This document shows, one piece after another, positions 9,901 through 59,626 of a stretch of 64,000 bases of DNA (its first letter is position 1; every line of letters begins with the position of its first letter). Source of the DNA: Cystobasidiopsis lactophilus (taxonomy: Eukaryota; Basidiomycota; Agaricostilbomycetes; Agaricostilbales; Chionosphaeraceae); the NCBI GenBank assembly GCA_001599975.1, contig BCIO01000005.1, forward strand, positions 2,156,508 through 2,220,507, written 5' to 3'. Under the pieces are notes generated by a model that had not been told where the DNA came from, searched no databases, and saw only the letters and a list, made by a program, of their open reading frames with translations. The position numbers and the translations under genes were made by a program.

Positions 9901-12843
9901 AGTTCAAGCCTGTCATGATGGCGGGCGCAGTCAACGGTGCCGCAGCTTACACGCCACCTGTCGGGGTCGTCCGTTTCTGGTTCAAGAAGGCTGAAGACTT
10001 GAAGAATGTCGAAGCTCTCACTGGCGGCAAGAGCGACCCGTACGTCCGAGTGCTGGAGCGAGGCATCACCATGACCAGGTCAGAGGTCGTCAACAACAAG
10101 TAGGTCACGCCTTCCAGCATTCAAAATTCCAAGAAGCTCAAAATACCTTCCGCAGCCTCAATCCTCAGTGGGACGAGATCCTTTATGTTCCAGTCCACAG
10201 GTGCGCAAATCTTGCTCTTTTTCCATAGCGCTGAATCCCAACTGACTCATTGAGGTTGCGCCAACACAGCTTGAAGGACCGACTTGTGATCGAAGTCATG
10301 GACTATCAGCAGCAGGGCAAAGATCGATCGCTCGGTAGCACCGACATTATGCTGTCCAAACTGGCGACCGAAGGCCCCGACAAGCTGCCCGTTGCTTTAG
10401 AGACCTTCAAAGGCTCTGATATGCTGAGATCTGACGGCAAGAAGACAGTCAAGGGCAAGATCTTTTTCGAGGCATCCTTCGCGCCGTGCAGCAGCTTTAC
10501 CGACTTTTCCTTCGAGCCGCCCCCAACTCCCGCCATGGTGGCAAAGGCCGAAATGACCGACGATGAAGACGATGCTGCGACCATCAACACCGTCAGCGAG
10601 GGTATCCATGAGGAGGACGTGCCTAATTTCCACATGACGGAAGATGCCAAGCGCCTGGAAGCAGACGCTGCCGCCGCCGAAGCTAAAGGACTGCCCAACG
10701 GCGTCACGCAGCCGCCGACTATGCCCAAGTCGCCGGCTGAAACGGGTTCGGTACCCAACACTCCAGCACAAGACCAAGCGAAAACGCCGACAATCCCTCG
10801 GGAGGTCTTGCTCAAAACTCGTTTGTCACATTGTCAACAGGCCACCGGGCGGGCGATCTGACTCTGACAACCAGAAACTGGCATTCTCGTCATCAACGTT
10901 GTTGGTGGCAAGCTGACCCGAAAAGCACGCCTGGAAATTCTTCTGGATTCTGGCTACTGGCCTTCCTGTGAGCTGCCCCGAGCGCTGCTTTAACGCCAGA
11001 GGCTGACAAGTCTCTGCCCAAAGACACTACGGAGAAAGCTCGTTCACTCAACGCAACGCTAGACGAAGTCGCCGAGGTCTTTATCAAGGAACTCGACGAG
11101 TCGCGCATCTTGTTCAAGCTCAACGAAGCGGAAAAGGAGTCCAACGACGATGTCTTTGCCGAAACCTCGATGGACATGAACGAGTTCTTGGAGACGACAC
11201 TGGACAAGCCGTGCGAGCTCACGCTGCGCAGCAGGACCAGCAGCGAGCAGAACACAGTTACCGTCACCTCCAAGTACATTCCTGTGGATGTCAAGATTGA
11301 GCCACGAGAAAGTGTCAACAGTGAGTGCTGTCTAAGGCTACTGCTTGAGTCGAGCCTTTCGTTTCACACATGATATGCAGATACTGGTGTCTTGAGCGTG
11401 GACATCCTGGGTGCTAAGGGTCTCCGAGCCATGGACCGCAATGGCTACAGCGACCCGTACGCCGTGCTCGAGCTGAATGGCGAAAAACTCTACAAAACCC
11501 AGACGAAAAAGAAGACTTTGAACCCTGAATGCAAGTTGGCTTCTCGTCCTCCCTCACAAGCTTGTCTGAAGGTCCTCTGCAGGGGCCGAACACACGCAGT
11601 TCCCAGTGCCATCTCGCACGGCTGCCCAGCTCCTGCTCAAAGTCTATGATTGGTGAGTTTAGTTCACTTTTGAACCGCTGCCCCCAGGCTGATATCTTCA
11701 CGCAGGGACGCTGTTGGCACAGCGGACAAGATCGGGCAGGGTCTCGTCGATCTCTCAACGCTGGAACCCATCGCACCGACTGTTGTCCAGGTGCAACTCC
11801 AGGACGCTGAGACCAGAGAGAACACCGGCGTCGCCACTCTGCGGCTGCTTTTCCGACCCGAGTTCTTGAACCGAGCGCGTGGTGCCACCTCCACCTTCAC
11901 TGGGGCCACGGTTGGCCGAGTCGGTACTGGTGTTGGGGCAGTCGGCAAGGGTGTCATCGGCGGTGGAGCAACGGTACGTGGGTTCGTCTCTGCAGTCCAT
12001 CCTTTCCTGAACATTTCTCTGGCAGGTTGTCGGTGGTGTTGGCAAGGGTGTGGGCGGAGTGTTCTCCAAAGTCGCACATGTTGGCGGTGGCGGCCACTCT
12101 CGCAAATCGAGCCTGGCAAACGATGTCGCCGCCGACGGCGCCCAAACCAACGGCGTGCAGACCCGCGACTACGCACCTTCTATCAACGGCTCCATCATGA
12201 CCACCGGAAACGGAGCGCCGGCAGTGCCAGGTCTCGATGGCCTGCTCAAGATCACCGTCTTGGCCGCTCAGGCGGGTGGCGAAAAAGCCCATGTCCACCT
12301 CAAACAGAATGGCAAGAGTATCGATATGTCTCACGACATCTTTACAAGTATGTGTCATCATCCTGCCTGGATAAAAGTGGTCTCAAATAAAAAACCTCCA
12401 GTCAAAACGGGCACCGGGTCTGACAACCTTCATTTTGAGCTTGTGTAAGTCGCGTGTTTCCTCTTATTTCGGCATCGGGCTCACCTCCACATCTCTTTAG
12501 GGAGAAGAAAACCTTTGGGAAAGGTCAGTCCGGCCGTAGAGCTAATGCCTAAATCCGTGCTGATCGAAATTCTTCAGACAAGCCGCTGGGCGCAGTGGAC
12601 ATGATGGTGTGGGACCACATCACCCCTGGCGCTGGCTCTGCAGACACGACCACCTCTATGTCCGTCGGTCTTGACGGTAAGCTGGATCTACAGCTCAAGT
12701 GGACCGCGTCCGCCCCTCTGGCCAATCCCAGCCCAACGGGATCGCCTGCCTCCATCAAGGGCAAACCCTCTCGCTTCTCGGTCTCCCGCCTGACCGCTCA
12801 CTCTCCCATGTCTACACCCGAAAAGCAACCTCCCGCGCCCTAA
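6994..12843 (+). CDS. Tricalbin (TM + SMP + multiple C2 domains)
   Basis: A long, intron-rich gene for a protein of roughly 1500 residues. Order of parts: a low-complexity N-terminus; a hydrophobic hairpin (FVIFFAVFASHFVTRF, YVALLLIMMSCGTYYSV) joined by a 59-base intron at 7714-7772; an SMP lipid-transfer domain starting VGFFLKESLQNFLRRFW and containing LRLTTFILGNKAPRLEYVR; then C2 domains at about 8900-9400, 9480-9930, 9960-10480 and 11390-11870, and a diverged one near 12240-12700. The calcium-type C2 core is visible as GYSDPYAVLELNGEKLYKT and GGKSDPYVRVLE. Tricalbins tether cortical ER to the plasma membrane and move lipids. The start at 6994 has a good context (ACCATGG); an in-frame ATG at 6940 is possible. 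A Gly/Val-rich stretch lies near 11880-12060. The length fits Tcb1-3. Confidence 0.92.
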
Positions 12844-28524: not shown

Positions 28525-29087
28525 GATCTCGAGGGCGTTCTTGTTTTGGGAGTCTATTGTTGTTGCTAACGAAAGCGTTGAAGAGCGGGTTGGCGGTCTG
28601 GGCGATTCGATTTGCGTCGCCTTGTGTTGGTGCTTGCTGGAGCTGCTGTCGCAGCTGGGGCGACTGTAATGGCGGAAGAACAAAAGAGGAGGCCGCATTG
28701 CGAACAAAAGGCTGAGTCTCAAGGGTCGACTTCTGGGTCTGAATCGCTGCTCGGATGCAAACTACTATAGGCTAGGGAAGGATCTATGAGAGATCTAGGT
28801 GAGCCAAATCGTGGATTCCAAAATTTGTCAGACGGAGATGCGTTATGGCTGAAGGGCTTAGGGCACCTGATGAGTAGCAGGGTCGACGCCAATAGAGTCA
28901 CTAAGGTGAACAGGGATTGAAGGAGTGAGAGTCGGCCGCCAGATCTGCGCGGGCCAAAGGAGGCTATCGTTTGCCACCGTCAGCCAACGAAGGCCTTCCA
29001 GGACGAGGGACACGCACCCGTCCAAGTGTGATGCTTGGTGCGAGCACAGAGGGTATAAAGCTTCGAATAGGCTGTTTTAGAGGCGTT
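28525..29087. other. Intergenic region, no gene seen
   Basis: About 560 bases upstream of the Pro/Ala-rich protein gene and downstream of the thioredoxin-like gene. The open frames here start from non-ATG codons or are under 65 codons and carry no motif. Confidence 0.4.
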
Positions 29088-37382: not shown

Positions 37383-38702
37383 TCACAAAAAGGGCTTCTC
37401 TGCCTGAGGCGTGAGACGAGCTCCGTGACGGCGAGCCTGAGTCGCCCCAAAGTCAACAATGGCGGTATGCGCGGTAATGCGATCTGCACAGACGAAGAAT
37501 TAGAGAGGCATTAGCCAGGCAAAGGCGACGCACTGTCCCAAAGTACGACCGAGCGCGGCTTCCAGCGGATGCGAGTCTGAAAGTCGGAGCCTTTCTCGAC
37601 GTGGCTGCAACCCAGAATCAGGTGGAACCCTTGGTGGTGAGAATGTGGCCTCACTTGTAAAGCAGCTGAAGGATAGCGTCCGACTCTTCCTCCTTCAGGC
37701 CAACAATGCGCCTCGAGAATTGGCGGTTCACGAAGAGGGCCTTCTGGCCTGTGACCGGATGCCGACGCACGAGAGGGTGAACGTTTTCGACGGGCTCCCG
37801 ACGCACAACGCCTCCACGGTTACCGGAACGAGAATACTCGGCTTGCGCCACTCCCGAGTGGACGACTTGCAGCGTCTCGAGGTAAGTGCGAAAGCTGGGC
37901 GACAGCCTCTCGTAGGCAGCTCGCTGGTCCGCATAGCCCGTATCTCCTCCTGTGGCAGGCGAGTCGTATAGGTATAAAGTTGTCAGACCAGGCGGCTGCT
38001 TTTCGTAGGTCACATCAGAGTGCCAAACCGTCGACGAGAGGCGATTGGGTGTCTCGAAGTTGGTACTTTGGAAGCTATCGTGAGCACACCTCCCAAGAAG
38101 GTGAACGGTATTACGTACTTGGCTTGCGGCGAGCGGAATACCAAATGAAACTCGGGCAGGCCTTTTGGGTGTCCGCTTGTAGGGTGGATATGGGGCCGGC
38201 CGAAGAAAGTGGTCCAATCATGGATGAGCCAATCGGGGTCTCGATCAAGTAAATCTTGATCTCGGAAGGCGACAACCCCTCGCTGGGCCACGAACAGAGC
38301 AAGTTGTTCTCGGCCGTGTGTGTCCAGCCGATCGATTTGGAGGCCAGTGATCTCGCTTCCGAAGTTCGGCGTGAGGTGCTCGATGGTAGCGCCATTGAGA
38401 AATGCCAAAGGCTCTTCATCATCTAAAGCCTTCTGACCTGGATTGGTAAACCCATTTGGTCAAAGGGCTGCGGCGCTCCTAACGAAAGCCTGACCTGGAT
38501 CGGAGTGCTCGAAATCGGTCAATGGATCGTAGTGCTCGTTGGGATCAAACGATGGCAGATAACGCTCGTAAGGGTAAGGGTCGTCGTCGCCCGATTGGGC
38601 CGCTTCAGAAAACCATTTATTGCGAGGAAGGCCCGAGTCCGCCTTCAAGCTGATGGCGTTTAGGGTTTTGGTGACCGTTTTAGTTGCAGTAGGAGGAGTC
38701 AT
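37383..38702 (-). CDS. TauD/TfdA-family 2-oxoglutarate/Fe(II) dioxygenase
   Basis: Spliced gene beginning MTPPTATKTVTKTLNAIS. The N-terminal exon has WFSEAAQSGDDDPYPYERYL and LPSFDPNEHYDPLTDFEH. The next exon (FLNGATIEHLTPNFGSEITG, REQLALFVAQRGVVAFRDQD) is the TauD N-terminal strand. The metal site is STVWHSDVTYEKQPPG (HxD), and the distal His and the 2-oxoglutarate Arg appear in WDNRITAHTAIVDFGATQ and RRHGARLTPQAEKPFL after two short introns (from 37655 and 37555). Fungal members oxidise taurine, sulphonates, sulphate esters or related acids, releasing sulphite or sulphate; the substrate here is unknown. All three metal ligands are present. No neighbouring sulphur gene was found. Confidence 0.9.
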
Positions 38703-41027: not shown

Positions 41028-44000
41028 CTACAAGCCAATGGCACGCAGCAAAACATATCCCAGAGTAATTACAACTGCGGTCGCGAGAACACTCGACGGA
41101 ATGCCAATGCGCAAGAAGTCGTTCGTCTGGTAGTTGCGAGTCAGCTGGTTTGCCCAAGCGCTCTCATGGAAGATGACGACAGCTCACTCGTAAATACGGA
41201 ACCCCGATTTCGTTCTCAAGGTTGACAGCCGTCATATTACTTCAGGTGGATATCAGAACCTGAGTGCGTGGCAATCATGAAAGCTGAGTAGCACTCACGG
41301 AAAGCCCGAGATTGGCAGACCCATTCCGCTGTTCGGACATTGGTTAGTCTGAAGTCCAAAAACACATAAGAGCGGAAGGACTCACGCAGAGCATATTAAA
41401 GCAGTGGCCTGGGGGCGGAAGGAATCGGTCAGCTTTGGAACATCAATTGCCGCTGACGAGCACTTGCCATGATTAGTAGCCGAGGGTGTGGCACTTCCAT
41501 AGCTTCGCCAATCTGGGCTGCTACTGGGACCAGAAGCACACTTGCGACGGTGTGGCTGACAAAGGTGGCGATGATAAGGCAAACGACCGAAGACAGCGCC
41601 AGGATGGGCCAGATGTCGAGGCCTTGGACCGCGCGTTGGATGACCACATCGCTATCAAGATGCATCAGCGAGATCAAGCACGTAGGAAGAGTGTCGTAAC
41701 GCACATGTCGTCCAGCAGCCCCGATGATAGGACAGCCTTGCCCAACGAGATGCCCCCCATTGCAAGCTGATGGCGATCGGTGAGTCCTCGGTGGATTCAT
41801 CAGGCACAAGAACAACTCACGAAGACGATAGCCCAAGGCTTTGCAGTTGAGAGAGATTGAGCAAACGGAAATGGCATCAGGCACCGACGAAGCTCACATA
41901 GTTCTCAAAGTCGCTCTACATTAAACAAAGAGTCAACAGAAAATCATGGCAAAGAGCAGCGCGACAACGCACCTTGCGAAGGCAGCCTGTCCCGAAGAAG
42001 GCGATCAGTGGGATGATGGCAATGACGCCCATATCGCCAAAGATGCCGTCAACCTGGTGGCTGACACACCACAAAGCGATGGTGAACAGCACCACAGTCG
42101 AGACGTAGTATTGCTTGATGGTAAAGGTGTCCTTCAAGCGCTTGATGGGGTTGATGGCGAGGTCGGACTCCCACGTATACGAGTAACACAGCAGAATCCA
42201 GATGCCGAGCACAGAGACGAAGGAGACGGGAAGGGCGACGGCGAACCACGTCAGCCAGCCGACGGGCGGGTTCATGTACTCGAGCGCGATCAAGTTCTGA
42301 GGGCTGGAGATGGGCGAGCTCTGGCCGCCAATGTTGGACGCCAGGGCGATGCCGAGGATCAGAGCCTTAGCGTAGTCGGTCTTGGGAGGTAGGGTGCGCA
42401 AGATGGGGGCGATGAGGCCGTAACAGAGGACGGGAGCGGCGACGTTGGAGATCCACATGGAGGCAAAGCAGGCGACGCCCATGTAGGCGACCAAGACCGT
42501 TCTCGGCTTGGTGCCGGCGAGAGCAAGCACTCGGGTCGCCAGCATTTTGTCGATGTTGTGCTTGGACAGAGCCGCGGCCAGGGTGAAGCCACCGATGAGC
42601 AGCATGATGGTGGGCGAGAACATGGTGCTAAAGATGTACTTGGTGGCTTCCGGAGCGGTCATGCGCCTGGCGTTCTCAGGATCGGCAGTCTTGACAACCC
42701 GAAGGACGACCACGAGGAAGGGGATGGCGAGCGAAGTGACGAAGAGCGGGATGACCTGCACGTGCACCCACAATCAACGTTCATTTTAGTACTGCGATGT
42801 ACACCAAAACGCACCTCTAAGGCCCAGAAAACAGATGCGAGGGCCAGGAGGGCCAGGCAGTTCTGTTCTTCTGGACGGTCCATGAGCGGCAGCCAGAGCA
42901 GCAAGCTGAACAGGCCGAGCCCAAGCACGGCGCCCCATAGCTGCTTGCTCTTCCAGTCGATCCCACCAGACCCTCCTTCTGACCCCTCTTTTCCAGAGCC
43001 CAGCTCGATGGCGACGGGCGCGGCCGATTGCCCGAGTTTCCCGGTCGCGTCCTTGGCCCGCGAGTGCATGCCAATCATGTCCCTCCACACCGTGTTGCGC
43101 TCGTACACAACAAATTCCCTCAATTGCGACTGCAGGCGCTTCACCGCGATCTCCTTATCGCCGCGGCAGACGACGCGGGCGTAGAGCTCGACGACCTTGT
43201 TCAGGGCGGCGTCGACCCGCTCTTTGGCTGCCGGCTGGAAGGGCGGGGCCGGATTAACGGACTGGGCCATGTACGACTTCTGCAGGTTGTTCTCTGTGAT
43301 CTTGTCAAACTTCTTGAGGATCTTGCGGAAGCCGGTCTGGTTGAGGGAGATGAACTGCTGCAGCTGGGTGAGCTCGCGGTAGAGGGACTGCAGGCGGAGC
43401 TTGAAAGTGATGCGGGTGTCGATGGCCCAGTCTGATGGCGCGGGGTTGTCCCAAACAGTGAGCTCGCCGGCTCCCGTTGAAACTGAGGGGCGCCTGTTGG
43501 CCGAAGAAGGCCGCCGCCCCTCGCCGCCACCACTCTGATCGGTCCCTACTGACAGTGCCCGTCCTCGCCCCTTCTTCTTGACCGGGGTGGTGAACAGCTG
43601 TGAGAGCTTGGTTCCCAAGCCCGGCCGCGCGGAAGAGCTGCCTTCCTCCGGGTGCAACAGGTCGCCAGATAGGACCGAGTCGGCGTCCGAATCGTTGTAT
43701 TGAATAGCGTTCTCGTCTTGCTCCAAGTTGGACTGCTCGACGGCGTCAATGTCGGAAGCGACGACGTCGACCTCCTTTAAAAGCTTGGCCTCTTCCTTGG
43801 TGTAGAAGGCGGACATGCTCTGCAGCTCTTTGTCCAGCAAAGCCTTGAACACATCCACGGCGGCGTCGGCGTGCTCGCCGTTGGCCAGGAGCGAGGCGGC
43901 TTCGAGGTCGCCATTGGCGGAGGTCGTCGCGCCTTTGAGGTTCTGGCGCTCGATGCGGTAGATGGCTTCCTTGAGCTGATCGTAGGCGAGGTAGTGCCCT

Positions 44001-44115
44001 GCAGCCGCAAGCCGTTGAGCGCCTGGGCGCAGCAACAAGGCCAGCAGAGGAGGCGAGACGGCGCACCTTGCAATTCTGGCGCCGCATTGAAGATCAGGCT
44101 TTGGGCGTACTTCAT
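41028..44115 (-). CDS. SPX-domain phosphate permease (Pho87/Pho90/Pho91 type)
   Basis: It starts MKYAQSLIFNAAPELQ, the canonical SPX opening, continued after an intron by YLAYDQLKEAIYRIERQNLK. The SPX domain spans about 400 residues with a Ser/Glu-rich insert and ends with NSFxxxFDKITENNLQKSYM-type helix (DKITENNLQKSYMAQSV). It is followed by a permease of the ArsB/NhaD/SLC13-like (DASS) superfamily: LFSLLLWLPLMDRPEE, IPLFVTSLAIPFLVVVLRVV, the TMFSPTIMLLIGGFTLAAAL motif and SNVAAPVLCYGLIAPIL. The conserved ASNIGGQSSPISSPQN motif near 42310-42340 is the substrate-binding hairpin. The end is RIGIPSSVLATAVVITLGYV. It would import inorganic phosphate with low affinity, gated by SPX sensing of inositol pyrophosphates. 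Confidence 0.92.
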
Positions 44116-46424: not shown

Positions 46425-47144
46425 AACGAGAAGCAAAGGGCGATGAAACCGGTCGAGCCAGGCGGATTTTCAAGCGAGCTCAATCTCGGCAGCCGAGGGC
46501 AGGACCAGCGTAGGAGGAAGAGCAAGAGTCGTGGGCTAGAGCAAAAGGGACCTTGCGACGAATGCCAGCCGTCCTCGCCCGGCGAGAGCCTGAAACCCTG
46601 GACCGGGCCTCCTCGAGGTGAACACGCCCTTTTGTCTTCTGCCAGTCTGCGACGTTTTAGCCATGGACGGAGCAAAACTTCTGAAGACCTTCTGTAGGAC
46701 TCAGTACTCGGAACGACGTTCGCCACAATGGTCAGAGTCACCCGAGAAGTGTTTCGACGCCGTTCGAGGGGTGTTCGGCGCGTCAGTTCGAGCCGTCCTC
46801 ACCACGACTGGTGTCTGCCGGGCTCGAAAATGAGCATGGAGTCGCTGACTGTAATTGTGGAGTCGTGTTGTACGCCCTTGGACACAATCCATCGGAGTCG
46901 CGGACTGCGAGTCGAGGGCAAGGTGCGAGAGACCAGGACGAAGGACATCTTCGCTTCGAGCCTGGATTTCAAATGAACAAAAAGTACACATCGTGGCCTT
47001 GAAAGCGCAAAACACAGAGGGCAAGTGGCTGAGCGAGTTGAAGGGGACTTCGACGAAATAGGGCTCTCTCTCCTGCCGCCATTTGTTCTTGCGTGCCGCT
47101 GTTATTTATGCAAGATTTGAGACAATCCAAGCTCAAGAGCTTCG
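46425..47144. other. Divergent intergenic region, no gene supported
   Basis: 720 bases between the APSES gene and the HPP-family gene. The best plus-strand frame (46443-46697, 84 codons, starting MKPVEPGGFSS) is basic and has no motif; I think it is chance. Probably both promoters lie here. Confidence 0.4.
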
Positions 47145-48389
47145 ATGAACACACCGGCACCCGCCCGAGAGGGCAGCTCAGCCCGCCTCTCCTGGCCCTC
47201 TAGATCTCGCTCTGCCGGCAGATCAAGAACTCGTAATGATTCTGCCTCTCCATCGAGGAGTTCATTCAGCTCCTTCAGAGGGCGAAGCCTCAGCCCCTCC
47301 CAGAGGTCTAGCGTTCCGTTGCTGCCTTCGTTTGGTCGGCCACCAGATGCAGTATCACCGGAGCGTCCTGGGCGGTCTGCCTGGACCGACCGGTTCAAAT
47401 TTGCTAGAGACTACAGAGAAGACCTGCCCGCTATAGTATCGCGGTTCGTCGGGTGGCGAGATCCTCAAGGGCCGCCTCCGCCCCTGCGCTTTCCACCTTT
47501 CTGCTGGTTAACGAAAGCACCGCCTCTCTTCGAAGGGTTGCTGTTTGGGTGGCTCGGATCGTTTATTGGCTTGGTGCTGGTGGAGGCCGTGAGCATCTCA
47601 AGTAGCGCTGTTCAGGGTCTCGGTGTGCCTCTGATTTTCGCCTCCATGGGAGCAACGGGTCAGTATCTCAAAAAGATGCCACAAACGCTTGCCTGATACC
47701 TTGGAAAGCAGCTGTACTGCTCTACTGCACCTTCGAATCTCCGTTAGCCCAGCCACGCAATTGTCTGCTGGGCCATGTACTCTCGGCGGTGGTTTCAGTT
47801 GCCATCACTCGCCTGTTTCGCCTCAGCTCGGCTTACCGCATAGAGGAGACCACGTCGCCTGCCGACTTCAGTCACCTAGTATGGCTCAACGCTGCCCTTT
47901 CCATGGCGACGAGCCTTTCTGTAATGCAGTTGACGGGAACGGTCCACCCACCGTGAGTCTGTCTGGTTTGTCAAGGGCCGCACACTCAGAGTCTGTCAAA
48001 GAGGAGGCGCCACTGCCTTGATCGCAGCGGTCCAGCCCACAGCCGTCGACCTCAGTTGGCGCTTCGTTTTCGTCATCTTCGCCTCGGCGTCACTCATGCT
48101 TGTGTGGGCGATGCTCATCAACAATCTCGGCCGCAAGCGGTACCCCGTCTTCTTCTGGTCTCCAAAGCCGTGTTTTGTCAAATCTCAAAACGGGGCCTAT
48201 TCGGCGGAAGAGAAAGTTGAGGAGGTGCTTCGAATGGCGGCTATGCGACGAGGGGAAGAGCAGGGCGGTCTGGGCGCCCTGCAGTTGGTCAGCGAAGAGC
48301 TAGAGCTGGAAGAAGAGGAGGAGCCTAGATCGGGTCGGAACAGAGAAGTCAGGTCGGACCTTACTATTGCCACCGTCTTGAAGAGCTAG
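47145..48389 (+). CDS. HPP-family integral membrane protein
   Basis: After a Ser/Arg-rich N-terminal arm (MNTPAPAREGSSARL to about residue 75) the protein reads YREDLPAIVSRFVGWRDPQG and then membrane segments: LFEGLLFGWLGSFIGLVLVE, VPLIFASMGATAVLLYCTFE and NCLLGHVLSAVVSVAITRLF. The family motif GTVHPPGGATALIA appears near 47945-48020, and FVFVIFASASLMLVWAMLIN follows. Introns at about 47655-47710 and 47953-48010 interrupt it. HPP proteins (HPP motif) include a cyanobacterial/plastid nitrite transporter, but fungal members lack an assigned role; a transport function is inference. The tail is acidic (LEEEEEPRSGR). It is the first gene of the region discussed as a possible metabolic cluster. Confidence 0.85.
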
Positions 48390-48494: not shown

Positions 48495-50144
48495 TTACCC
48501 TGTGCAGAGAAGTGTTAGAAGAGACAACCGCTCTCGGGAAGCAAGTCGACTGACAGATGGTGTAGCCACCATCGACAATGAGCTCTGTTCCCGTGCAGTA
48601 GGCGGCAGCGTCCGAGCAGAGGAACAAAGCAGCGCCATTTAAGTCTGAAACGTGTCCCAGCCGGCCAATAGGCGTCCTCTCGAGCCAAATTTTCTTGATT
48701 TCGGGGTCGAACTGTTCAAAAAGGCTCTCAGATTACTGAGAGGGCTAGCCAAACAAAGAGCAGGATCAACCTTGTCGCTCAACAGCGTCAGCATGTAGCT
48801 GTTCACCAAAAGGCATCAGGACATTGAAGTGGACAGCTTCCACGGAACACGAACCCGGGAGAGATGCAGTTTACTCTAATCTTGTGGGTGCCCCATTCGG
48901 CAGCGAGAGACTTGGTGAGATGCGTGACCGCAGCTGTAGGCCCAGGTCAGTGGTTTGCTAACTACGCACCGAGGTGCTCATAGAACACACCCTTTGATGC
49001 ATTGTAGGCAGCCTGATGAACGAACGTCAGTAAGGAACGGTCGAAGCACCTGCTATTGGGCGGAACTCGCCTGCGGTTGAGGGTAGTTGACGATGCTCCC
49101 GGACATGCTGCTCGCCAATCGAGCATGAATTGACAGTCTCCCAGGGCAATCAAATAGCCAACCTTGAAATGAAAAGAATGGAACTGTTGGGATTCCGTTG
49201 TCAGCAAGCTCGATACTCGATGGCACGGATCACGCTCACCCGCCCTTGCCACGCTCGATCATATGCCGCGCAACCGGTTGCGCCGTGAAGAATACACCGT
49301 TGAGGTTGATGTCCAGCACTCTCTTGAATCGATCTGGTGGGTAGTCCTCGCTGTGATCAAGACACAAGAAATAAGCATGGAGCGTTTTGGTTCGGTCAAG
49401 AACGAACGCAGCAATGTTGTCGCAGACTGTGATCAGTAAGCCTCAACATCAAGCACAAGATTAATCGGAATAAGGTGGCGCACCTCCAGCAGAGCACAGC
49501 AAAATATCAATGGAGCCAAAGTCTCTCAGGACGCCGTTGACGACCTCCTCGACGGCATTAGCGTCGCGCACGTCGACCTGGTAAAATGAAGCTGTAACGC
49601 CATATTCGGCGTGCTGCCCAAAAGCAAACGCTATTGAGTTCGGGCCAAGCGCGGGGTCAAGCGGCAGGCGCACCAATTCCTGAATGGCGGCCTCTGTTTT
49701 TCGCGCGCCTGGTTGAGCAGCTGTAGGGGCCTCAATAAAGACACCGACGGACCTCCAAACTCTGGCAGAATGTCCAGAATGGCAATGCCAGCAAGGCCGG
49801 CTTCGCATAAGCCTCTTGACATCTCGAATCCAAGGCCTCGGGCTCCACCAGTGACCTGAAGCGCGCGTTCGTTGAGCTGGTGCGCCCAGCAACTACAGCA
49901 CACAGCAGCGAGCACTGACCACTGCCACCTTGCCAGTCAGCTCGAATTTGGCAAAGGTGCCGCCAGAGACATGGTTGAGGCTCTTTTGCCCGTTAGCGTC
50001 CTTGGGCAGCGCCTTGCCCAGCTCTTGCATCGATCCGCTCATCTTCTTATATGCTTCTGTTGCTGTCACTGGGTCAGACGCGGCTCTGATCCCTGGTGTC
50101 GCGGGTCCAAGAGACTGGTTTTTTTGGACCAAGCGGTGCGTCAT
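48495..50144 (-). CDS. Short-chain dehydrogenase/reductase (polyol/arabinitol dehydrogenase-like)
   Basis: It begins MTHRLVQKNQSLGPATPGIR, a long leader of about 70 residues before GKVAVVTGGARGLGFEMSR, the TGxxxGxG nucleotide-binding motif. An insert follows, then EELVRLPLDP-type linker, VTASFYQVDVRDANAVEEVV and IDILLCSAG. The active site is completed by SMSGSIVNYPQPQ and the catalytic AYNASK (YxxxK), joined by a GC-AG intron (49013-49070), followed by AVTHLTKSLAAEWGTHKIRV and NCISPG. It closes RLGHVSDLNGAALFLCSDAA and LIVDGGYTIW. Classical SDR of the group including D-arabinitol and sorbose reductases. It could reduce a sugar or a polyketide. Six introns. Confidence 0.88.
49013..49070 (-). 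other. GC-AG intron in the dehydrogenase gene
   Basis: On the coding strand: exon ends CCGCAG, donor GCGAGT, branch TTACTGAC, acceptor CATCAG. It joins NYPQPQ to AAYNASK and keeps the frame. Confidence 0.65.
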
Positions 50145-50319
50145 CGGTTCACGACGAGTGGTGCTAAGTGGCAACGAGGAGGCCCAGGATTCATACAGAC
50201 ATGGCTAACAGCATGGCGTTCATACAAGAAGGTACACGCATGATCCAGTTCCTACTTGGTGATTTACACCGCTCGCCGTTTCCGTGCTTGACAATCAAAA
50301 GCCATGCGCTCAGACCAGG

Positions 50320-51554
50320 TCAGATCAGCGTCTCCCCCTTCTCCAAGACGGCCACAGCAACACCTAATGCACCGGTGATCTTGTGAGGTAGTAGCGCGCC
50401 GTTTTCTTGCCGTAGCGCCTCGTCGACCTTGAGGGGGATTTCCAGCGCAGCTCTTGCTAAGGAAATGGCCAGGCGGGCGCGTCCAGTCAGGTTGAAATAC
50501 GACAGCTCTCGCAGTGCAACTGTTTACTCGCCGGCAGGGCCAAGTCAGCGTCCGCCGTGCCTCGAAAGCCAAAGTTTGTCCACAACTCACGTTGAATTTC
50601 GTACAGTCGGATGAGTTCGAACCGAATGACACTCAGTGATAATTGTCCAGCTGCACATTGGGAGAAAAGAAAGGGAAATTGAGAACTAGGGCCAAGGCAA
50701 GGACTTGAGGGACAACCGAGCATGAACCTACCTAAGAACAGACTTCTTATTTTGGCCAGCGCCCGCTCCATGATCTCGACACTGTCTTCTCCAATATCGA
50801 TGTTCGGGTTTTCGTTGAGAGCCGCTGGTGAAAGACGACAGCTGTCAGCTTGAGGAATTTCACGAGGCAACGTGCGGAAGCGGCGCCCACCAATGATCGT
50901 CCGCAGGAAGCCAAAGTCGCCCGCTTGGAATTGAAGAAAAATGTCTTTTAGGCACGTATACAGCGTCTCTTCTGTGAAACACAGGGGACAAAATGATGAG
51001 ATCGACGAAGGTAAATTCGCCACCGCGGGGGAACAGATGACGAGAGCGGAAGGGATGAGCGCACCTGCATTGCGCCCGTCTCCAGTGGAGTAGCCAGTGA
51101 GATCATAGTGCCGCCTTTCTTTAGGGTCATGTAGGACTTCGTAGGCGAAAGAGAGGCGTTGGAACGCTTGGGAGTTGGCCGCCCTGTTGTTTGTTTGTGC
51201 GCATCAATTTATTGTCCCGCCCTGCGCTTCGACGAGCGGCACGAAGAGGAATGGGACGCACCCAAGCTTATCAGGATGCACAAGCCTGGAGCGCTGCAGA
51301 TACGCGCGTCGGATTTGCTCTGGCGTTGCCCGTTTGCTTTGCAGGCCCAGCACCACGTATAGATTCCGCTCGGTGACAATGGCGGCGGCTAGTTTGGCGC
51401 CTTCGCTGAGCGGAGCGCTATGAGGCTGATGCTCGCTAGCCGCGCTTTGTGAGGCGTAAGTGCTCGTCCGCTTGAGCTTGCGCGGGTTGCGATCCGAGGT
51501 GGATGCGTCGTTTCGCTGGCCGAAGAACGAGTTCGCATAGCTGAGGATGGCCAT
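50320..51554 (-). CDS. J-domain (DnaJ) protein, N-terminal J domain
   Basis: It starts MAILSYANSFFGQRNDASTS. The J domain is NLYVVLGLQSKRATPEQIRR, AYLQRSRLVHPDK (HPD motif) and, after introns, ending RRHYDLTGYSTGDGRN. It is followed by ETLYTCLKDIFLQFQAGDFG and FLRTIIGGRRFRTL, a conserved helix of unknown use, then NPNIDIGEDSVEIMERALAK and a C-terminal helical block ending GVAVAVLEKGETLI. Such proteins stimulate Hsp70; there is no cysteine-rich zinc region, so it is not a type I DnaJ. About 300 residues. It lies 184 bases from the methyltransferase-like gene on the same strand, inside the candidate cluster. Confidence 0.82.
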
Positions 51555-51738
51555 CAGTGCGACGGCCAGACGAAGAGAGACCTCTGCAGCTGTCTCGTCT
51601 GACCCGACAGCAGCGTGGAAGCTCTGGTTTGGCGGCGGGACAAAAGAGGCTTCGTCGAAGTTTCCTCGTGATAAGGTTGGGCTGGAGAGAGGGCAACTCT
51701 TGGTGCCCCGGGTTGTGGGGGAGCATTGTCAAAGGAGT

Positions 51739-52827
51739 TCACATTTGCTTCAGCCCTGCAAACCAGTACACCTTTCCAATGATCGGCACATGGGGCGTTG
51801 TGCCGTGCATAAATTTCCACTTGCGCACTTGCTCTGGCGACGCAGCGACCTCGATGAGCTTCTTCACCTCTCTTGGCGTCCTGGTGCGCATGGCCTGAAG
51901 CCTGTTCTTTGAATTATGGAGACTCAGAGCAGATTAAGCCAAACGAACACTGGTGTAGCCGTCCGCTACCATCACAATGGGCAGGATTGGCACGACGTAG
52001 GTGAAGAACAGATGGACCGGCGACCACCAGTAGAACAGAGGGGTGATGATGGTCAACAGCGGTCCCATGAGGAAGATTTGCAGAAGGGACGTCAGATAGC
52101 GAGACTGCAATTCGAAAATGCTGGAGCAGCCACTTTCAGTTGAAGTTCCGGTCTTCCAGCACAGGCAGGACGACAAGCATACCAGAACCCCTCTGAGGTA
52201 TCAAGGGTGTCTTTCAGTATGGAGATGGCCAAAGGGTCCGGGAAGTGGTGAAAGGCGAGGGAGAACAAGCGGAAGACCTTCTGGGCCTTGACGTTGGAGG
52301 CAGAGGACGCATCCACAGGGTCAGGGATGTAGGAAAGATGCCGAGAAGTGCGCGAGAGCGCCTGCCAAGCCTCGACATGGGGGTGCAAGTCGGTCAAGAC
52401 AAAGTCGAGAGGCTCTAGCCCTTTGGAGCGCCGCTCCGCATTGAGGAGCCGTTCGAACGCCGGCGTCGGACCACCAGCTCCAGCTGCAAAGTCGACCAAG
52501 GTAAGACCAGCTTCGTCAGGGAGAAGATCTGCGAGGATCTTGGCGGCAGTTTCGGCTGGCGACTTTTCTTGCAGTACGGGCAATTTGAGCGTCCACATTA
52601 AGGTGAGCAAGTCTTGAATGCGCCCCCTTAAGAAGGCAGGGAACCTGAGTGGAGTGTGTGAGACTGCCCGCGAAGTCGCCGGGCCGTTCGAAATTGGGTC
52701 TCGATGCGCGAGAGCAGGCAACATACCACGCCTGGTCGTCAATCTCATAGAAATGGATGCGATGCTTCGTCAAGAGCATGTTGGGCGTCGCGCTGGGTGT
52801 TCGCGGCACCGGTTCAAGAGGCGTCAT
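51739..52827 (-). CDS. Methyltransferase-like protein with C-terminal membrane segments
   Basis: The start is MTPLEPVPRTPSATPNMLLT. An intron (about 52620-52740) joins the first exon to FPAFLRGRIQDLLTLMWTLK. A SAM-binding-like motif I follows: LVDFAAGAGGPTPAFERLLN, then motif-II-like DFVLTDLHPHVEAWQALSRT, and FSLAFHHFPDPLAISILKDT. After a further intron the C-terminus has two membrane segments, LLQIFLMGPLLTIITPLFYW and VHLFFTYVVPILPIVMVADG, and RTRTPREVKKLIEVAASPEQ. It closes FAGLKQM. A Rossmann methyltransferase fused to a membrane part is a fungal arrangement I recognise only in outline. Divergent from the polyketide synthase gene with 68 bases between ATGs, so the two are probably co-expressed. 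Confidence 0.72.
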
Positions 52828-52895
52828 TGCTAGCAAACGGCGCTCGATCAAGTTGGGCTGGAGCCGCACGGCAGTGGTTGTCCCAAACCGTCGAT
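52828..52895. promoter_or_regulatory. 68 bp shared divergent promoter
   Basis: The whole interval between the methyltransferase-like gene start and the type III polyketide synthase start. Each transcript must begin in it or inside the other's coding sequence. It is moderately GC-rich, and I see no TATA box or obvious inverted repeat. Confidence 0.6.
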
Positions 52896-54244
52896 ATGAG
52901 TGTCATTATAAGCGGCATAGGCAGCACCTATGGCCCCCTTTCCACCAAACCTGAGGAGTTTCAGGAGTTTGTGGGCAGGCATTACGATCCAAGCCTTCCA
53001 GCGTGAGTCCCCCATCACATCGATATGGCAGCGTGTCCTCAAAGTCGCTTGCCCAGTATGGCCAAGCTCCTCGCCATAAACAAACAGACCATGATCAAGG
53101 CCAGATCTGGCGTATGCGACGCCTCGAGCGCCATTCTCAACTCAGCTACCGCACCATCCGTCGAGGCCCTAACGGCTTTGTTCCTCAAAGACGGCGTCCA
53201 AATGGCCGTCCAGGCATCCGCAAAGGCCATAGAAGAGGCGCAGGTGTTGCCGTCCGACATTACGCACATGGTCTCGACTACGTGCACAGTCTCGTCGAAC
53301 CCGGGCTACGACCATTTTGTGGCTAGAGAGTTGGGCTTGCGGCCGGACGTCCAGAAGACGCTGCTGGCAGGAATCGGCTGCAGCGGCGGGCTGGCGGGGA
53401 TTCGGCTTGCGGCCAACCTCTTGCTGGCGGCGGCCGCCCAAAAACAAACGAAGGCTGTTGCCTTGGTTGTCGCTTGCGAAATTACTTCGACATTGGCACG
53501 AGCTGAGCTGGATCGCATTGTTGCCACCAATCAGGTCCACATTGGGGTCAGCATCTTCGCGGACGGGGCCGGGGCGGTCGTCTTGAAGCTGGGTGGCGGG
53601 GGAGACTCGAATGGCGCCTCGAACGGCCATCATTCGCCTGGGCTGTTTGAGCTCCTGAATTGGACCAACATGGTCAGTTGATATCTCCTATTCAGCAAAG
53701 TCATACTAACACTTGCATCTGGACAGAGCATTCCTGACACCGAGCACGAACTCGGCTTCGACTCGACTTCGTTCGGCTGGAAAGTCATCTTGACCCCGCG
53801 TAAGTACCCGCTATCGCCACTTTCCACCCATGCTGACCATTTCCCTATCCAGAGGTGCCCAAATTGACGGCAGTGGCCCTTCCTAGAATTTTCCAAGCTC
53901 TTATGAGGCAAGCGAACCTGCCGCAAGCCCCGCCTGCCGACTTCGATTTCGCGTTGCACCCAGGCGGCGCTGCCATTCTTGGTGTGTGCCAAGAGGTGTT
54001 CCAGATACCAGTCGAGCGTTTGACTGCCTCGTGTGAGCCCTCCTGCTCGGCACGCGCTTCGAGCTCGACTCACCTGTCGAACACAGGGCACGTTTATCGC
54101 AACCATGGCAACTCTTCTAGTCCTACAATTATTCAAGTCTTGGATACGATGCGCCAGAAGCCAGGCCGAGAGCAAGTGTTCGCCTGCGCGTTTGGGCCTG
54201 GCATCAACGCCGAAGGCGCCTATTTGCGGAGGCTGTGCGCGTAA
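52896..54244 (+). CDS. Type III polyketide synthase (chalcone/stilbene synthase-like)
   Basis: It starts MSVIISGIGSTYGPLSTKPE. Exon 2 joins at AMAKLLAINKQTMIKARSGV. The catalytic triad is complete: Cys in LLAGIGCSGGLAGIRLAANL, His in FALHPGGAAILG and Asn in YRNHGNSSSPTIIQVLDTM. The strand VACEITSTLARAELDR precedes HIGVSIFADGAGAVVLKLGG. The last exon ends INAEGAYLRRLCA. Length is about 390 residues, usual for this family. Such homodimeric enzymes extend an acyl-CoA starter with malonyl-CoA and cyclise the product to a resorcinol, pyrone or phloroglucinol without an acyl carrier protein. The starter here is unknown; fungal members often use fatty acyl-CoAs. Four introns. The family is uncommon in basidiomycetes. 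Confidence 0.95.
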
Positions 54245-54317
54245 ACTATCGTATATCAAAAGAAGAAGTAAGACCGAATACCTTATCGCTGTTATTCAGA
54301 AGGCCTTGTACTGCCTT

Positions 54318-54746
54318 TTAGAAATGAATACCTCTGGGTCTGTCAAGCAAAAGGACGTACAGCGCTGTCGCCCAGCTTATGAGTCTGACCCCGCAAATTG
54401 CGTGCACGACGAAGTGCAGGGCAGGCATCCCCCATTCGCTAGCGCTGCTGCTGCTCTTGATCCTCTTGCCGGCTCGTAGAAAGGGCCCTAGATGATACAG
54501 GCCGAGCGCGCCACAGATGTATCGTGATAGGGCCAGATGGCCAGCAGGGTCGTGCTGTAAGATGGCAAGAGCTGTCAGGTTTGACGTGAAGAGGAGCAAG
54601 GCGTATTGGCGGATAAGGTCGTGGGCAAGGGGAACGGGCGACATCAGCGTCGCACTCGGCCTAAGGAAGAACATCAAGCACGCCGGCGTTTCGATCAGAG
54701 TGTGCCAGACTAGTGGGTGTAGTGCGTAGGACGAAAGAGGCATCAT
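54318..54746 (-). CDS. Small multi-pass membrane protein (unrecognised)
   Basis: The first in-frame ATG (54746) gives MMPLSSYALHPLVWHTLIET, a 142-codon uninterrupted frame. Hydrophobic stretches are PACLMFFLRPSATL, HDLIRQYALLLFTSNLTALA, LSRYICGALGLYHLGPF and HFVVHAICGVRLISWATALYVLLL, so three or four membrane helices. The frame stays open upstream to 54944 (FKLAPITTIPLSFNLFLEAA) but with no ATG. No known family. It sits between the polyketide synthase and hydrolase genes; a role in product export or membrane binding is only a guess. Confidence 0.6.
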   Translation of the reverse strand: MMPLSSYALHPLVWHTLIETPACLMFFLRPSATLMSPVPLAHDLIRQYALLLFTSNLTALAILQHDPAGHLALSRYICGALGLYHLGPFLRAGKRIKSSSSASEWGMPALHFVVHAICGVRLISWATALYVLLLDRPRGIHF

Positions 54747-54972
54747 CCTGGGCGGGAAGGCGGCCTCGAGAAATAAATTAAAGCTCAGCGGGATGGTCGT
54801 TATCGGAGCCAGTTTGAAGCTCGGTAGTCTCTCAGAGCGCACAGGTGGACCAGGATGGGCAAAGTCGCCAAGAGGTTGGGCGAGAACGGGAAGACTACGT
54901 GGCACTTCCTTTGCCGGTCGATCACCGTCAACCTCCAATTTCACCTTTTACTAATCAGCCGCACGAACACTC

Positions 54973-56610
54973 TACGACAGCAGAGTCTCCAAATAGGGCA
55001 GCACAACTGGCTTCAAGTACTTCGCCCATGTCTCGTTCGAATCGTCGTTGACCGCGCCGACTTCGAAGCCGTGATAGGCGCCGGGCACACCGACGAGCAC
55101 ATTCTTGACTCCTTCGCGGTCCAGCTCGGACTTCCAGAAGACGGAGTCTTCGAAAGGGACGCCATTGTCGGCCTCTCCGTGGACGATAAAAGTGGGAGGT
55201 GAGTTGGGAGTACTGCGGCAGCAAAATGGTCAGTATTCCCGCCGCAAGACTTGCAGAAGACGCGCACGTATTAAGCTGGGGGAAGACTAGAAGCGAAAAC
55301 GGGCATCAGACCGATCCTAAAGTATGCGGGCCATCAGGGAAAGAGAAGGCTCACGCTTCTTGAACTTTGCGGGAATCAACTTGCGGCGCTCATCAGCGGA
55401 CTTGCTGTCGCCAATCGCCTTGCTAAGGGCAGCATCTCCGGTGAGCTCGTTGACGTATCCGGTGTATTGGATCAGGTGCAAGCAGTAAGTGTTTCTGAAC
55501 CAGGGTACCGTCAGCTTGGGGCGGCCTGAACTCTTAGAAGAGTGAGCCATACTGATCCCATGCCCAAAGACCGTCGGCTCCTTGAGCTTTGTAGAACTCT
55601 CGGTCTTTGGTGAAATCGGGCAGGTCAATGCCTGTGAGGATCGGCTTCTTCCGGACTGGAAACTGTCTTGATTCGCGCCCCAAAGGGGAGAAGAGGTCAT
55701 TTTTGGCTCACCGATGATTTCACCTGGGGGTGGAGTGAGGATGCCCATGATCGGGTCGTTAGGGCGGTACTGGTTGTAGTCTGCACAAATAAGGCGTCTA
55801 AATCTATACACGCAGGCTTGTCGCTAGAGAGCACGCACAAGGACGATCCTGTGAAACACGGCACTCTGAGCACAAAGTGACAATCACTATGAAGGCTCGA
55901 CCGACTTACCATTCCAGCCTCGGGGTAGATGGCCAGCAGAGCTTTGAAGGGCGTCTTGCCACCTTTGTGGTAGTCGGTGACAGCGGCAGCGCACCAGCCT
56001 CTAAAGAAATAGGTTCAGAACATGGCCAAGCTCCACCAGTCAGAGAGCAAGCTTTACCCGGCAGACAAACCGACAGCCTGGATTGAAGCAGGTCAGGTTT
56101 CCGGGCCTTCTCGCAAATGAACGAGTACGAACTCCGAAGCGCGAGTCGTCAACGGAGCCAAATCCTTCAGCGGCCAAGATAGCAGGCAGCTTCTCATGGG
56201 CCCAGGCGGCGGCGTCCAAGCTGGGATCACGTTCGTCAACCGGCGAGTTCTCGCCTGGACCCTGGTGCGCTGCTTACATGTCGGACAGAACGCCCTCGCC
56301 ATCAGTGGTAGGGAGCAACCTGAAGTTTCAGGGCGTCAGTATGGCCGCCTCAGCCGCTAGGTCGAAATAGGCTTCACCTGTAATCTGGCGAGACATAGAC
56401 CACGCCTTTGCCGAGGGCCTCGTCCACCACGTACTCGGGCAGCCATGCAAAGCGGTCGCCGCCCGTCAATCCACCCGGGTGGTAGTTGACGATCACAGGG
56501 TGGGCTTTGTCAGTCTTGGGTGCCCAGACAGTCAAAGTGATGTCGGTGCCCTCGACGGTCTTGTAAACGAAATCCTTCTTCCAGGCGGCAGCAACGTTTG
56601 GGAACGACAT
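54973..56610 (-). CDS. Alpha/beta hydrolase (carboxylesterase/HSL-like)
   Basis: It starts MSFPNVAAAWKKDFVYKTVE. The oxyanion-hole motif is IVNYHPGGLTGGDRFAWLPE. The nucleophile is in VGLSAGGWCAAAVTDYHKGG (GxSxG, split by an intron at about 56018-56056), the acid in FIVHGEADNGVPFEDSVFW, and the His in PGAYHGFEVGAVNDD near 55070. Family: esterase/lipase of the alpha/beta fold; substrate unknown. It ends ETWAKYLKPVVLPYLETLLS. Five or six introns, some of the middle exons uncertain. It is divergent from the FAD monooxygenase gene (394 bases). In the cluster model it could release, lactonise or trim a product. Confidence 0.88.
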
Positions 56611-57004
56611 CTTTGGCCTTCGTTGAGGACGGAAAGGCCCTCAGAAATGCGGAGGTTGCGCGCTCGGCGGCGAGCTCTGGCTGCCCGCCCCCACTCTGCT
56701 TGCCGGTTTTGTGCGGACTTCCGAGTGGGTTTACCCGCCTGTTGGCCATTTCACGAGGCAGCGTAGGTGCCAGACCTCACAAAGTGCTGGCGAACTTGGA
56801 CGCTCCTCCGCAAGAAAACGCGAAAACGCACTGGGAGGCATTTCACGTGCTGCCTCCCAACAAAAATTGGGGCCTGCGCGCAGTCCTTGCTTGATCCGCC
56901 TGGACGACGACCTAGAGAAGGCTGAGGCCCGAACCACAGACACAGCTCCCTGGAGATATTGCTCTTTTGGAGCGCGCCACATCAACGCGGCTCAGTCATC
57001 CATT
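56611..57004. promoter_or_regulatory. Divergent promoter region between hydrolase and monooxygenase
   Basis: 394 bases between two start codons. It contains a palindrome-like CACGTG core near 56844 (TTTCACGTGCTG), the E-box sequence bound by bHLH factors; one copy may be chance. No gene is seen. Confidence 0.4.
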
Positions 57005-58433
57005 ATGGAAGTCGCGATAATTGGTGCTGGACTGGCTGGCTTGATGGCTGCGCGTGTCCTGCAGCTGAACGGCGTCGATTGTGTTATTTACGAAGCCGAG
57101 ACCGACCCAAATGCCAGGCAGCAAGGTGGCTCTCTCGTATGTCTATCGCTCACGACCCATTCCAGCAAAGCCTCAGTGTTATTTTAGGACTTGCATAATG
57201 GAAGCGGCCTGGCCGCCATGAAGCTCGCAGGCCTCTACCCGCAATTTCAAGCCAAAGCGAGAGCCGAGGGGGATTCAATGCGCATCCTTGATTCAGCTGC
57301 TGGCGTTCGTTACTTTGACGCCGGCTCGGGCACTGGGATTTTTGCCCGGCCCGAGATCGATAGGTTGGTGACGTTCAAAGCTGAAGGCCTCTACCATGCA
57401 TTTCTTACTTAAGATACGACCACAGGACAGAGCTTCGACAGATTCTCTTGGACTCGTTGAAGGACGGCGTCAAATGGGGCTCCAAGCTGGACTCCTTCAC
57501 CAAGCTGGACGGTGGCAAATTCAGCCTGGTCTTTGCAGACGGCCACACTGCAGTCTGTGACTTCATTGTTGGTGCGGACGGTACTTGGTCCAAAGTTCGC
57601 ACGGCTCTAGACCCAGCAACGAAGCCGGCGTACACCGGGGTCACTTTCTTTGACCTTACAATTCACAATGTGGAGGAAGAACATCAAGATTTGTGTGACA
57701 CCGTCGGCCCTGGAGGCGCCGGAACCGCCATGGCGATCGGCGAAAACCAAGCGATCATGCCCCAGCGAAACGGGCACGGCATGATGCGGGTCTATGTGGC
57801 GCTGCGCAAGGATGTTGACTGGGTGGACTCGTTCGTTCAAAAGGGCGAGCCGTTAGAAGCCACCAAAGAACGCCTCAAGGCCCTCTACGCTGGGTGGTCG
57901 CCTAAGCTTCTGGCCTTCATCGACGCGGCAGCTGTGATCACGCCCCGAAACATCTATGCGTTGCCAGTCGGTTACAATTGGCCTCATGTGCAAGGGATGA
58001 CGTGCGTAGGAGATGCAGCACACTGCATGTCGCCGATGGCAGGCGAGGGGGCCAACCAAGCGCTCATTGACGGAGCCCATTTGGCACTCGCGATCGCCAA
58101 GGGGCACAAGAACGGAGTGCTGGACGACCGTGTGGCACTGTTCGAGCGGCGCATGGTTCACCGCGCAAAGTCAGCGGCGTTTGAAAGGTGGGCCAGCCTC
58201 GATGGTGACTGACTATAGGAGCTGATTGGACATCTAGCCAGGAAAACCTCGAACTCATCTTCCACCCCGACGGACTAGAGGTGGGCCCCTTTCCCCGCTG
58301 CTTAAGAGAAGCCACCCTCACAAGTTTCCCGCAGCGCTTCCTCGACAAGTTTAACAGCATGATGTCGTTTTGGGGTATGGTCTGGGCTACTTTAGACGTG
58401 CTTAAGCAGATGGCGCAAGGCTGGTTTTTGTAA
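57005..58433 (+). CDS. FAD-dependent monooxygenase, TetX-like
   Basis: It begins MEVAIIGAGLAGLMAARVLQ, the GxGxxG dinucleotide-binding motif, then GVDCVIYEAETDP. Exon 2 reads DLHNGSGLAAMKLAGLYPQF, strongly like the family of the bacterial tetracycline-modifying TetX enzymes, and RPEIDR joins TELRQILLDSLKDGV. FAD motif two is FIVGADGTWSKVRTALDPAT (DG motif) and the third is GMTCVGDAAHCMSPMAGEGA (GD motif). The last exon ends FDKF, then WGMVWATLDVLKQMAQGWFL. About 400 residues; four or five introns. Class A flavoprotein hydroxylases act on aromatic and polyketide rings, so the neighbouring polyketide synthase product is the natural candidate. No antibiotic activity is implied. Confidence 0.9.
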
Positions 58434-58484: not shown

Positions 58485-59626
58485 CTAAAATGCGGAAACG
58501 GAGGTCAGGCTGAGATCCTTCCAGAGCGGCGGGCGGTAGGGCTGCTTGGAGGCTGAGAAGAACTTTTGGATGCTTCCAGGCTCGTCGGCCCTAATGGACA
58601 ATAGACACAGTCAGCTCAACAAATTTAAAGGCAGCAGCCTTTGGAAACCTACCAGTGCACCTTCACGCCCTTCTTGTCCAGCAGGCTGCGCACGGTCGAC
58701 CACGAGAAGCGCGCGATGTTGGGAAAGCCGAATATGGGATCGAAGTTGGCCTCGAGCCAAGCGACGGTGCGGGGGTCTGACGGATAGCCTGAGCCAAAAG
58801 GAACATCCTCGTCCTCTGCCTTCGTCCCTTCCAAAAACTTCCAATGGGTGATACAGGCGTCTCGAGTGACCTTTGCCGCAATTGAGGCCGCTCCTACTAT
58901 TGGGTACTTGAAGTCGGCTTTCGATTCAACGGTGAACGAAAGAGTTGGAAATTGCTTTTCGAGCTTGGCCTGGTAAGCCGCCGAAGGGCCGACTGTGTCG
59001 ACGAAAACCTGCTCGTCTCTCAATGCAGGCTCGCTTCACAGAGCAACGAGCGCGCTCACTTTGGTCACATTGTAGCCCTTTTCGAGCACATCTCGGATCA
59101 AGCCCACGGTGGCATCGTGAGATTGGGCGTTGCTTTTGCAAAATGTTCAGCACGTTCCCAATTATAACAGCCCAGAAAGGCAGCCTACAGGTTGTAAGGA
59201 GCTCGTTGCAGCATGTGCCGCGAGATGTCGTGCGGGCTCATTACTCTTGTTGCCCATTTGAGGTCGTCCGGACACGAGCAGATCGTCTCCAGCAAGCCCA
59301 CGCGTTGTTCATGAGTCAAGGTCTTGGAATCAGCAAAGCCCATGGTCTTCAGCTGCTCCTCGTAGGTGATTTTGCAGAATGCGACGCCATAGACTTGCGG
59401 ACCTGAGCAAGGCGATTTGAGGACGGCTCTTGCTCTCGTCTGGGGAGGCCTCACCTAGAACAGGACCTCTTCCTGCCTCATCTATTCCCATGAGACACTC
59501 GTCGCCATCTCCCGCAGCCTCGAATGAATGATAAGTGTAGGAATCGACGAGGGATTCCTCCTGCCGGACGCTAGGCGGCACGATGTCGGCGTCTAAGACC
59601 TCCTCTTCTTCTTCTTTACGAGCCAT
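58485..59626 (-). CDS. rnh201: Ribonuclease H2 catalytic subunit A
   Basis: It begins MARKEEEEEVLDADIVPPSV. The catalytic motif CLMGIDEAGRGPVLG continues over an intron as PQVYGVAFCKI, then MGFADSKTLTHEQRVGLLE. VFVDTVGPSAAYQAKLEKQF, SKADFKYPIVGAASIAAKVT (the second acidic block with KYPIVGAASI) and ACITHWKFLEG, GSGYPSDPRTVAWLEANFDP follow. It ends with GSIQKFFSASKQPYRP and SVSAF, the PIP-box-like tail region. The enzyme removes ribonucleotides from DNA and RNA:DNA hybrids. Length near 310 residues is normal. Three introns. Confidence 0.95.

Follow-up and report, generated by a model that had tools for sequence, protein, structure and literature searches.

This work describes a type III polyketide synthase (PKS) gene of Cystobasidiopsis lactophilus (Basidiomycota) and its neighbours within a window of 64,000 nucleotides, the whole stretch of DNA analysed here (contig BCIO01000005.1, positions 2,156,508 to 2,220,507; coordinates below are those of the window). 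A preliminary description had grouped the genes at 48495-58433 as a candidate type III polyketide biosynthetic cluster. From left to right, this interval holds a short-chain dehydrogenase/reductase, a DnaJ-domain gene, a methyltransferase-like gene, the PKS, a small membrane protein, an alpha/beta hydrolase and a flavin-dependent aromatic-hydroxylase-type monooxygenase, and it is flanked by genes for an HPP-family membrane protein and ribonuclease H2 subunit A. The DnaJ gene was absent from the preliminary description; the outer limits given there coincide with the outer ends of the reductase and flavin hydroxylase models. Genes were modelled with a gene finder trained on the window's own long open reading frames (ORFs), and the models of interest were then curated by hand at their splice sites. 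The window is intron-rich, with a GC content of about 56%, and Rfam and tRNA scans of it returned no matches. The six models obtained between 48495 and 58433, one of which is single-exon, are all stop-free; the five multi-exon genes contain 33 introns (median 57 bp) over 1707 codons, a density of short introns that agrees with a basidiomycete host.

The PKS gene (52896-54244, + strand) is composed of five exons (52896-53002, 53057-53672, 53727-53799, 53853-54032 and 54087-54244), separated by GT-AG introns of 53-54 bp, and encodes 377 amino acids (aa). The protein carries both chalcone/stilbene synthase domains (PF00195 and PF02797, above cut-off) together with a Cys-His-Asn triad, which identifies it as a type III PKS. 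The triad had been described as intact; it consists of Cys144, His301 and Asn334, each of which aligns with the corresponding Cys, His or Asn in Neurospora crassa PKSIIINc (ORAS). Judged from its sequence, the enzyme fits well into a family already known. Among the best 60 of 103 matches to solved structures, PKSIIINc ranks first (3euo, 330 bits; 3e1h, 329 bits), compared with 212 bits for CsyB, 207 bits for an Aspergillus thesauricus enzyme and 93 bits for the bacterial Pks11. The alignment to PKSIIINc spans residues 3-374 of 377, with identity at 174 of 363 aligned residues (47.9%). The PKSIIINc chain of 465 residues continues beyond the aligned part, whereas the PKS described here stops three residues past it. 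An identity of 48% is below the level of about 57% at which clades are separated in PMC12559476. Searches for relatives in viral contigs and prokaryotic genomes require exact 8-residue words, so that a lack of relatives there is weak evidence of absence; no viral relative of the PKS was confirmed in this way. A recent bacterial import of the PKS was considered and ruled out, given 330 bits to the fungal and 93 bits to the bacterial enzyme.

Residue numbering against the published N. crassa enzyme was anchored at Cys120, after which the remaining published letters agree. The N. crassa triad, which we take to be Cys152, His305 and Asn338, then maps to the three catalytic residues named above. 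Cys120, Thr121, Asn125 and Gly206 are kept as Cys112, Thr113, Asn117 and Gly199, and Ser186 is replaced by Thr179. These five positions are discussed in PMC7763939, which also reports on PKSIII of the basidiomycete yeast Naganishia uzbekistanensis. The Naganishia enzyme has Thr at the Ser186 position as well and converts C8-C16 starters mainly to triketide pyrones, along with alkylresorcinols; it differs, by description and without alignment, in a 74-residue C-terminal extension and a Tyr at the Asn125 position (PMC7763939). Since the residues of the PKS are compatible with it and the Naganishia enzyme shares this Thr, a fungal synthase of the long-chain alkylresorcinol/pyrone kind is our best guess, with the product class predicted from the residues.

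The methyltransferase-like gene (51739-52827, - strand; four exons, 296 aa) is divergent to the PKS. Its product contains the motifs VDFAAGAGG, LTDLHP and FHHFPDP, presumably of class I methyltransferase type, and adjacent C-terminal hydrophobic stretches at residues 196-218 and 221-243. Only 68 bp (52828-52895) separate the predicted start codons of the two genes; this possible shared promoter is shorter than the space within any of the five other divergent pairs of models (245, 545, 248, 448 and 394 bp). The 90 bp upstream of the two starts contain no in-frame ATG in either frame. Among all neighbours, the methyltransferase-like gene is most likely the partner of the PKS, and this pairing is the most specific lead at the locus. 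The gap also holds CCGCACGG at 52864, which seemed to us to resemble a zinc-cluster factor site; it was set aside as not significant, because CCGNNCGG is found 15 times in the window.

The flavin hydroxylase gene (57005-58433, + strand; five exons, 407 aa) matches PF01494 at 77 bits (cut-off 22) and displays the motifs GAGLAG, GADG and GDAAH. Its nearest solved relative is AbsH3 (6n04, 222 bits), with which it aligns over residues 3-385 of 407 and shares the flavin adenine dinucleotide motifs; TetX2 follows at about 127 bits. The enzyme had been described as TetX-like, and it scores 129 bits against the NCBIfam model tet_monoox_X, for which a tetracycline destructase would have to reach the cut-off of 750. 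As it remains far under this cut-off, no tetracycline inactivation is claimed. The solved proteins nearest to the hydroxylase are bacterial, which says little, because solved structures of fungal relatives may be lacking. The exact-word search confirmed no relative in the prokaryotic genomes.

We give an even chance to an account in which an ORAS-type PKS acts with the methyltransferase-like protein as partner, the hydroxylase possibly joins them and the other genes are mostly neighbours. The PKS, being of the PKSIIINc kind, would take a long-chain fatty acyl-coenzyme A onto Cys144 and extend it by two to four malonyl units, after which ring closure would yield an alkylpyrone and/or an alkylresorcinol. 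The methyltransferase-like protein, probably held in the membrane, would methylate this lipophilic product there, and the flavin hydroxylase, encoded 2.8 kb further on, may introduce a ring hydroxyl. Most likely, the short-chain reductase, the DnaJ protein and the small membrane protein would be bystanders, as might the hydrolase. The class of substrate, the product, its methylation and hydroxylation and any common regulation are thus all predicted, whereas enzyme family, catalytic residues and the order and spacing of the gene models are observed. We favour this account because of the scores and residues of the PKS, the 68-bp gap, the adjacent hydrophobic stretches and the locus of the closest orthologs of the basidiomycete Sl-PKS2, where genes for an oxidoreductase and a hypothetical methyltransferase likewise accompany the type III PKS (PMC6985275). 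The latter locus also contains O-acyltransferase, MARVEL, WD, carboxyl transferase and DUF2838 genes (PMC6985275), none of which was recognised among the models of our interval.

Several observations weigh against this account. The preliminary description spoke of a divergent, membrane-linked, methyltransferase-like gene; its divergent position and hydrophobic stretches are borne out, its identity as a methyltransferase is not. No Pfam family was matched at E-values up to 10 (with the search itself discarding most hits beyond about 0.1), nor any NCBIfam family at E-values up to 0.1, and the PDB returned two chance-level matches alone (E-values of 1.4 and 5.4). The protein therefore lacks the profile match to a methyltransferase family that would place it among class I S-adenosylmethionine-dependent methyltransferases, and its name is based on motifs, given that no match in Pfam, NCBIfam or the PDB is credible. 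Relatives were confirmed by exact words neither in the viral contigs nor in the prokaryotic genome collection, and a structure model of exon 2 was too poor for a fold search (mean predicted local distance difference test (pLDDT) score 41.3). The 68-bp gap relies on predicted start codons and grows to 116 bp if the start is Met17, and some of the models that define the other divergent gaps are weak (scores of 6.6 and 10.6). Among four upstream regions, no sharing of promoter k-mers was found beyond that of random segment pairs (18 comparisons; lowest 69/1000): one 9-mer is common to the PKS/methyltransferase and small-membrane-protein regions (matched by 101/1000 random pairs), and seven are common to the hydrolase/hydroxylase and reductase regions (69/1000). 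For the PKS, the N. crassa tunnel residues Met189 and Val190 are replaced by Leu182 and Ala183, so the chain preference may differ. Finally, ORAS itself has no obvious gene cluster in the account of PMC6985275, and the same is stated there for SmPKS and SsArs.

Apart from the DnaJ gene, the remaining genes of the interval were found as described before. The short-chain reductase (48495-50042, - strand; 13 exons, 284 aa) matches PF13561 at 209 bits. Its nearest PDB entries are the carbonyl reductase 7dll and the nicotinamide adenine dinucleotide phosphate-dependent mannitol dehydrogenases 7krg and 3gdf, which points to ordinary primary polyol or carbonyl metabolism; the reductase is probably a neighbour outside the pathway. 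One of its introns (49013-49070, - strand) has a GC donor (GCGAGT) in place of GT. The DnaJ-domain gene (approximately 50633-51554, - strand) separates the reductase from the methyltransferase-like gene and probably belongs to no pathway here. Its PF00226 domain is split across the ORFs 50490-51203 and 51204-51728 at 24.9 and 25.9 bits, just below the cut-off of 27.8, and the two halves (50490-51728, - strand) are apparently joined by an intron. The small membrane protein (54318-54746, - strand) is encoded by a single exon of 142 aa with one stretch over the hydropathy threshold. It matched no family in the profile searches, and its low-confidence model, with four predicted helices, was too poor for a fold search (mean pLDDT 54.5). 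The alpha/beta hydrolase (54972-56610, - strand; 11 exons, 343 aa) is divergent to the flavin hydroxylase, with 394 bp between the start codons. PF20434 and PF07859 are both above cut-off, the motifs GLSAG, HGEAD and YHGF are kept, and its PDB relatives are esterases at 38.5 bits or less.

The PKS may also stand alone among bystanders drawn from abundant kinds of enzymes; the families of flavin monooxygenases, hydrolases and short-chain reductases are all large. This view finds support in the cluster-free ORAS, SmPKS and SsArs, in the type III PKS genes of Sordariomycetes, often without nearby tailoring genes (PMC12559476), and in the chance-level sharing of promoter motifs at our locus. It agrees with the weak local enrichment among Pfam-assigned genes given below, yet against it stand some enrichment of enzyme genes and the very small distance between the PKS and the divergent methyltransferase-like gene. 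We consider a PKS without partners possible, though on the unlikely side.

Slightly less probable, and rather unlikely in our view, is a true gene cluster in which the PKS, the methyltransferase-like protein, the hydroxylase, the hydrolase, the reductase and the small membrane protein together make a methylated, hydroxylated alkylresorcinol or pyrone. Tailoring-type genes are denser at the locus: they account for 4 of the 6 PKS neighbours, compared with 1 of the 20 models outside the interval (Fisher test, 0.0047), or for 3 of the 6 neighbours when the methyltransferase-like gene is left uncounted (p 0.028). The test was made post hoc with our own definition of the tailoring class, and the contrast holds weakly without the genes that lack a Pfam assignment (3/4 versus 1/7, p 0.088, or versus 1/8 with the HPP gene included, p 0.067). 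The control comprises the finder's 21 outside models less one of 46 aa, so that genes missed by the finder, such as the HPP gene, fall outside the 20; the single tailoring-type gene among them is a TauD-family dioxygenase model (37383-38702, - strand). The Pfam scan covered 19 of the 20, leaving out a 1450-aa model (6994-12843). Two control models were scanned in part (533/867 and 584/834 aa), and one model is split in two. Twelve of the 19 scanned models have no Pfam match at an E-value of 0.001, and for this reason their kind is uncertain.

The literature speaks for and against such a cluster. The FAD-binding domain PF01494 and the dehydrogenase domain PF00106 occur at the loci of 7/8 and 6/8 fungal type III PKS clades, respectively (PMC6985275), and short-chain dehydrogenases are frequent there (PMC12559476), so the chemical plausibility claimed for the gene set holds. 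The bacterial operons that the preliminary description invoked are documented, in that 58 of 96 planctomycetal type III PKS genes stand in operons with genes for a methyltransferase and an FAD oxidoreductase (PMC10896814) and further cases are hidABC and srsC (PMC8086630), and they offer an analogy of like content. The three commonest companions at fungal type III PKS loci are P450, transporter and transcription factor genes (PMC6985275), whereas no P450, transporter/exporter or transcription-factor/regulator domain was found among the genes modelled within the interval. PMC6985275 detected no common cluster in clades 2 and 3. Contiguity fails over 48495-58433, where the DnaJ gene interrupts the series; the shorter stretch 51739-58433 contains no gene recognised as unrelated. 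Together with the primary-metabolism-like reductase and the lack of promoter k-mers shared beyond chance, this leaves the PKS and the plausible chemistry standing from the proposed cluster. The full set is a reasonable hypothesis; a single co-regulated cluster is unproven. A described cluster of exactly this content was not found in the open-licence literature searched, which is no proof of its absence.

The likeness to bacterial operons may also reflect a fungal phenolic-lipid pathway of two or three enzymes, assembled independently and functionally parallel to srs/hid, in which an ORAS-type PKS, a membrane-held methyltransferase belonging to a family described by no library used and an AbsH3-like hydroxylase would produce a methylated hydroquinone or quinone lipid. 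We regard this as doubtful. The locus shares with the hidABC, planctomycetal and srsABC operons the presence of the same three kinds of enzymes in one neighbourhood. In contrast to those operons, its genes bear introns and lie on both strands, its PKS is fungal and its methyltransferase-like protein is of no recognised family. The bacterial PKS and methyltransferase family that would mark an srs/hid-type operon are thus missing, and the locus was set apart on these grounds without direct comparison to HidA or SrsB. Because the PKS is fungal and the exact-word search found no prokaryotic relative of the methyltransferase-like protein, the likeness amounts to functional analogy alone. Horizontal acquisition of an srsABC/hidABC-type resorcinol operon from bacteria can practically be dismissed despite the similar enzyme content and three reported type III PKS transfers from Actinobacteria to fungi (PMC6985275), as the PKS is far closer to the fungal than to the bacterial enzyme, the PKS, methyltransferase-like and hydroxylase genes contain introns, the GC content of the locus resembles the rest of the window, and exact words revealed no prokaryotic relatives of the methyltransferase-like and hydroxylase proteins.

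Studied examples of type III PKSs from basidiomycetes are few. In 2020, 522 type III PKSs were counted in 1193 fungal genomes, with 40 basidiomycete species representing 9% of Basidiomycota genomes (PMC6985275), and a later survey found 1148 in 2096 genomes (PMC12559476). The rarity in basidiomycetes that had been claimed is therefore fair; it is real, though not extreme. Basidiomycetes contributed 1 of 11 characterised fungal enzymes in PMC6985275, with the Naganishia enzyme coming later, and the genome of a lichen-associated Tremella is reported to contain one type III PKS cluster (PMC8355462). The tightly paired PKS/methyltransferase-like locus would be a small and direct set for expression; were the pairing conserved, it would also point to a function of the methyltransferase-like protein, which the profile libraries used do not recognise.

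The interval is bounded on the left, directly beside the reductase, by the HPP-family membrane protein gene (47121-48389, + strand), a partly modelled set of ORFs with PF04982 above cut-off on 47934-48386 and weak on 47121-47693. On the right, as described before, lies ribonuclease H2 subunit A (58485-59626, - strand), a partial model with a PF01351 match whose 5' end was taken from the ORF. Elsewhere in the window, a model with SPX and CitMHS (PF03600) domains (41253-44115, - strand) presumably resembles fungal low-affinity phosphate transporters. A single-exon ORF of 834 codons (26194-28698, - strand), without a Pfam match in its first 584 residues, is rich in Pro, Ala and Ser and is unusual in so intron-rich a window.

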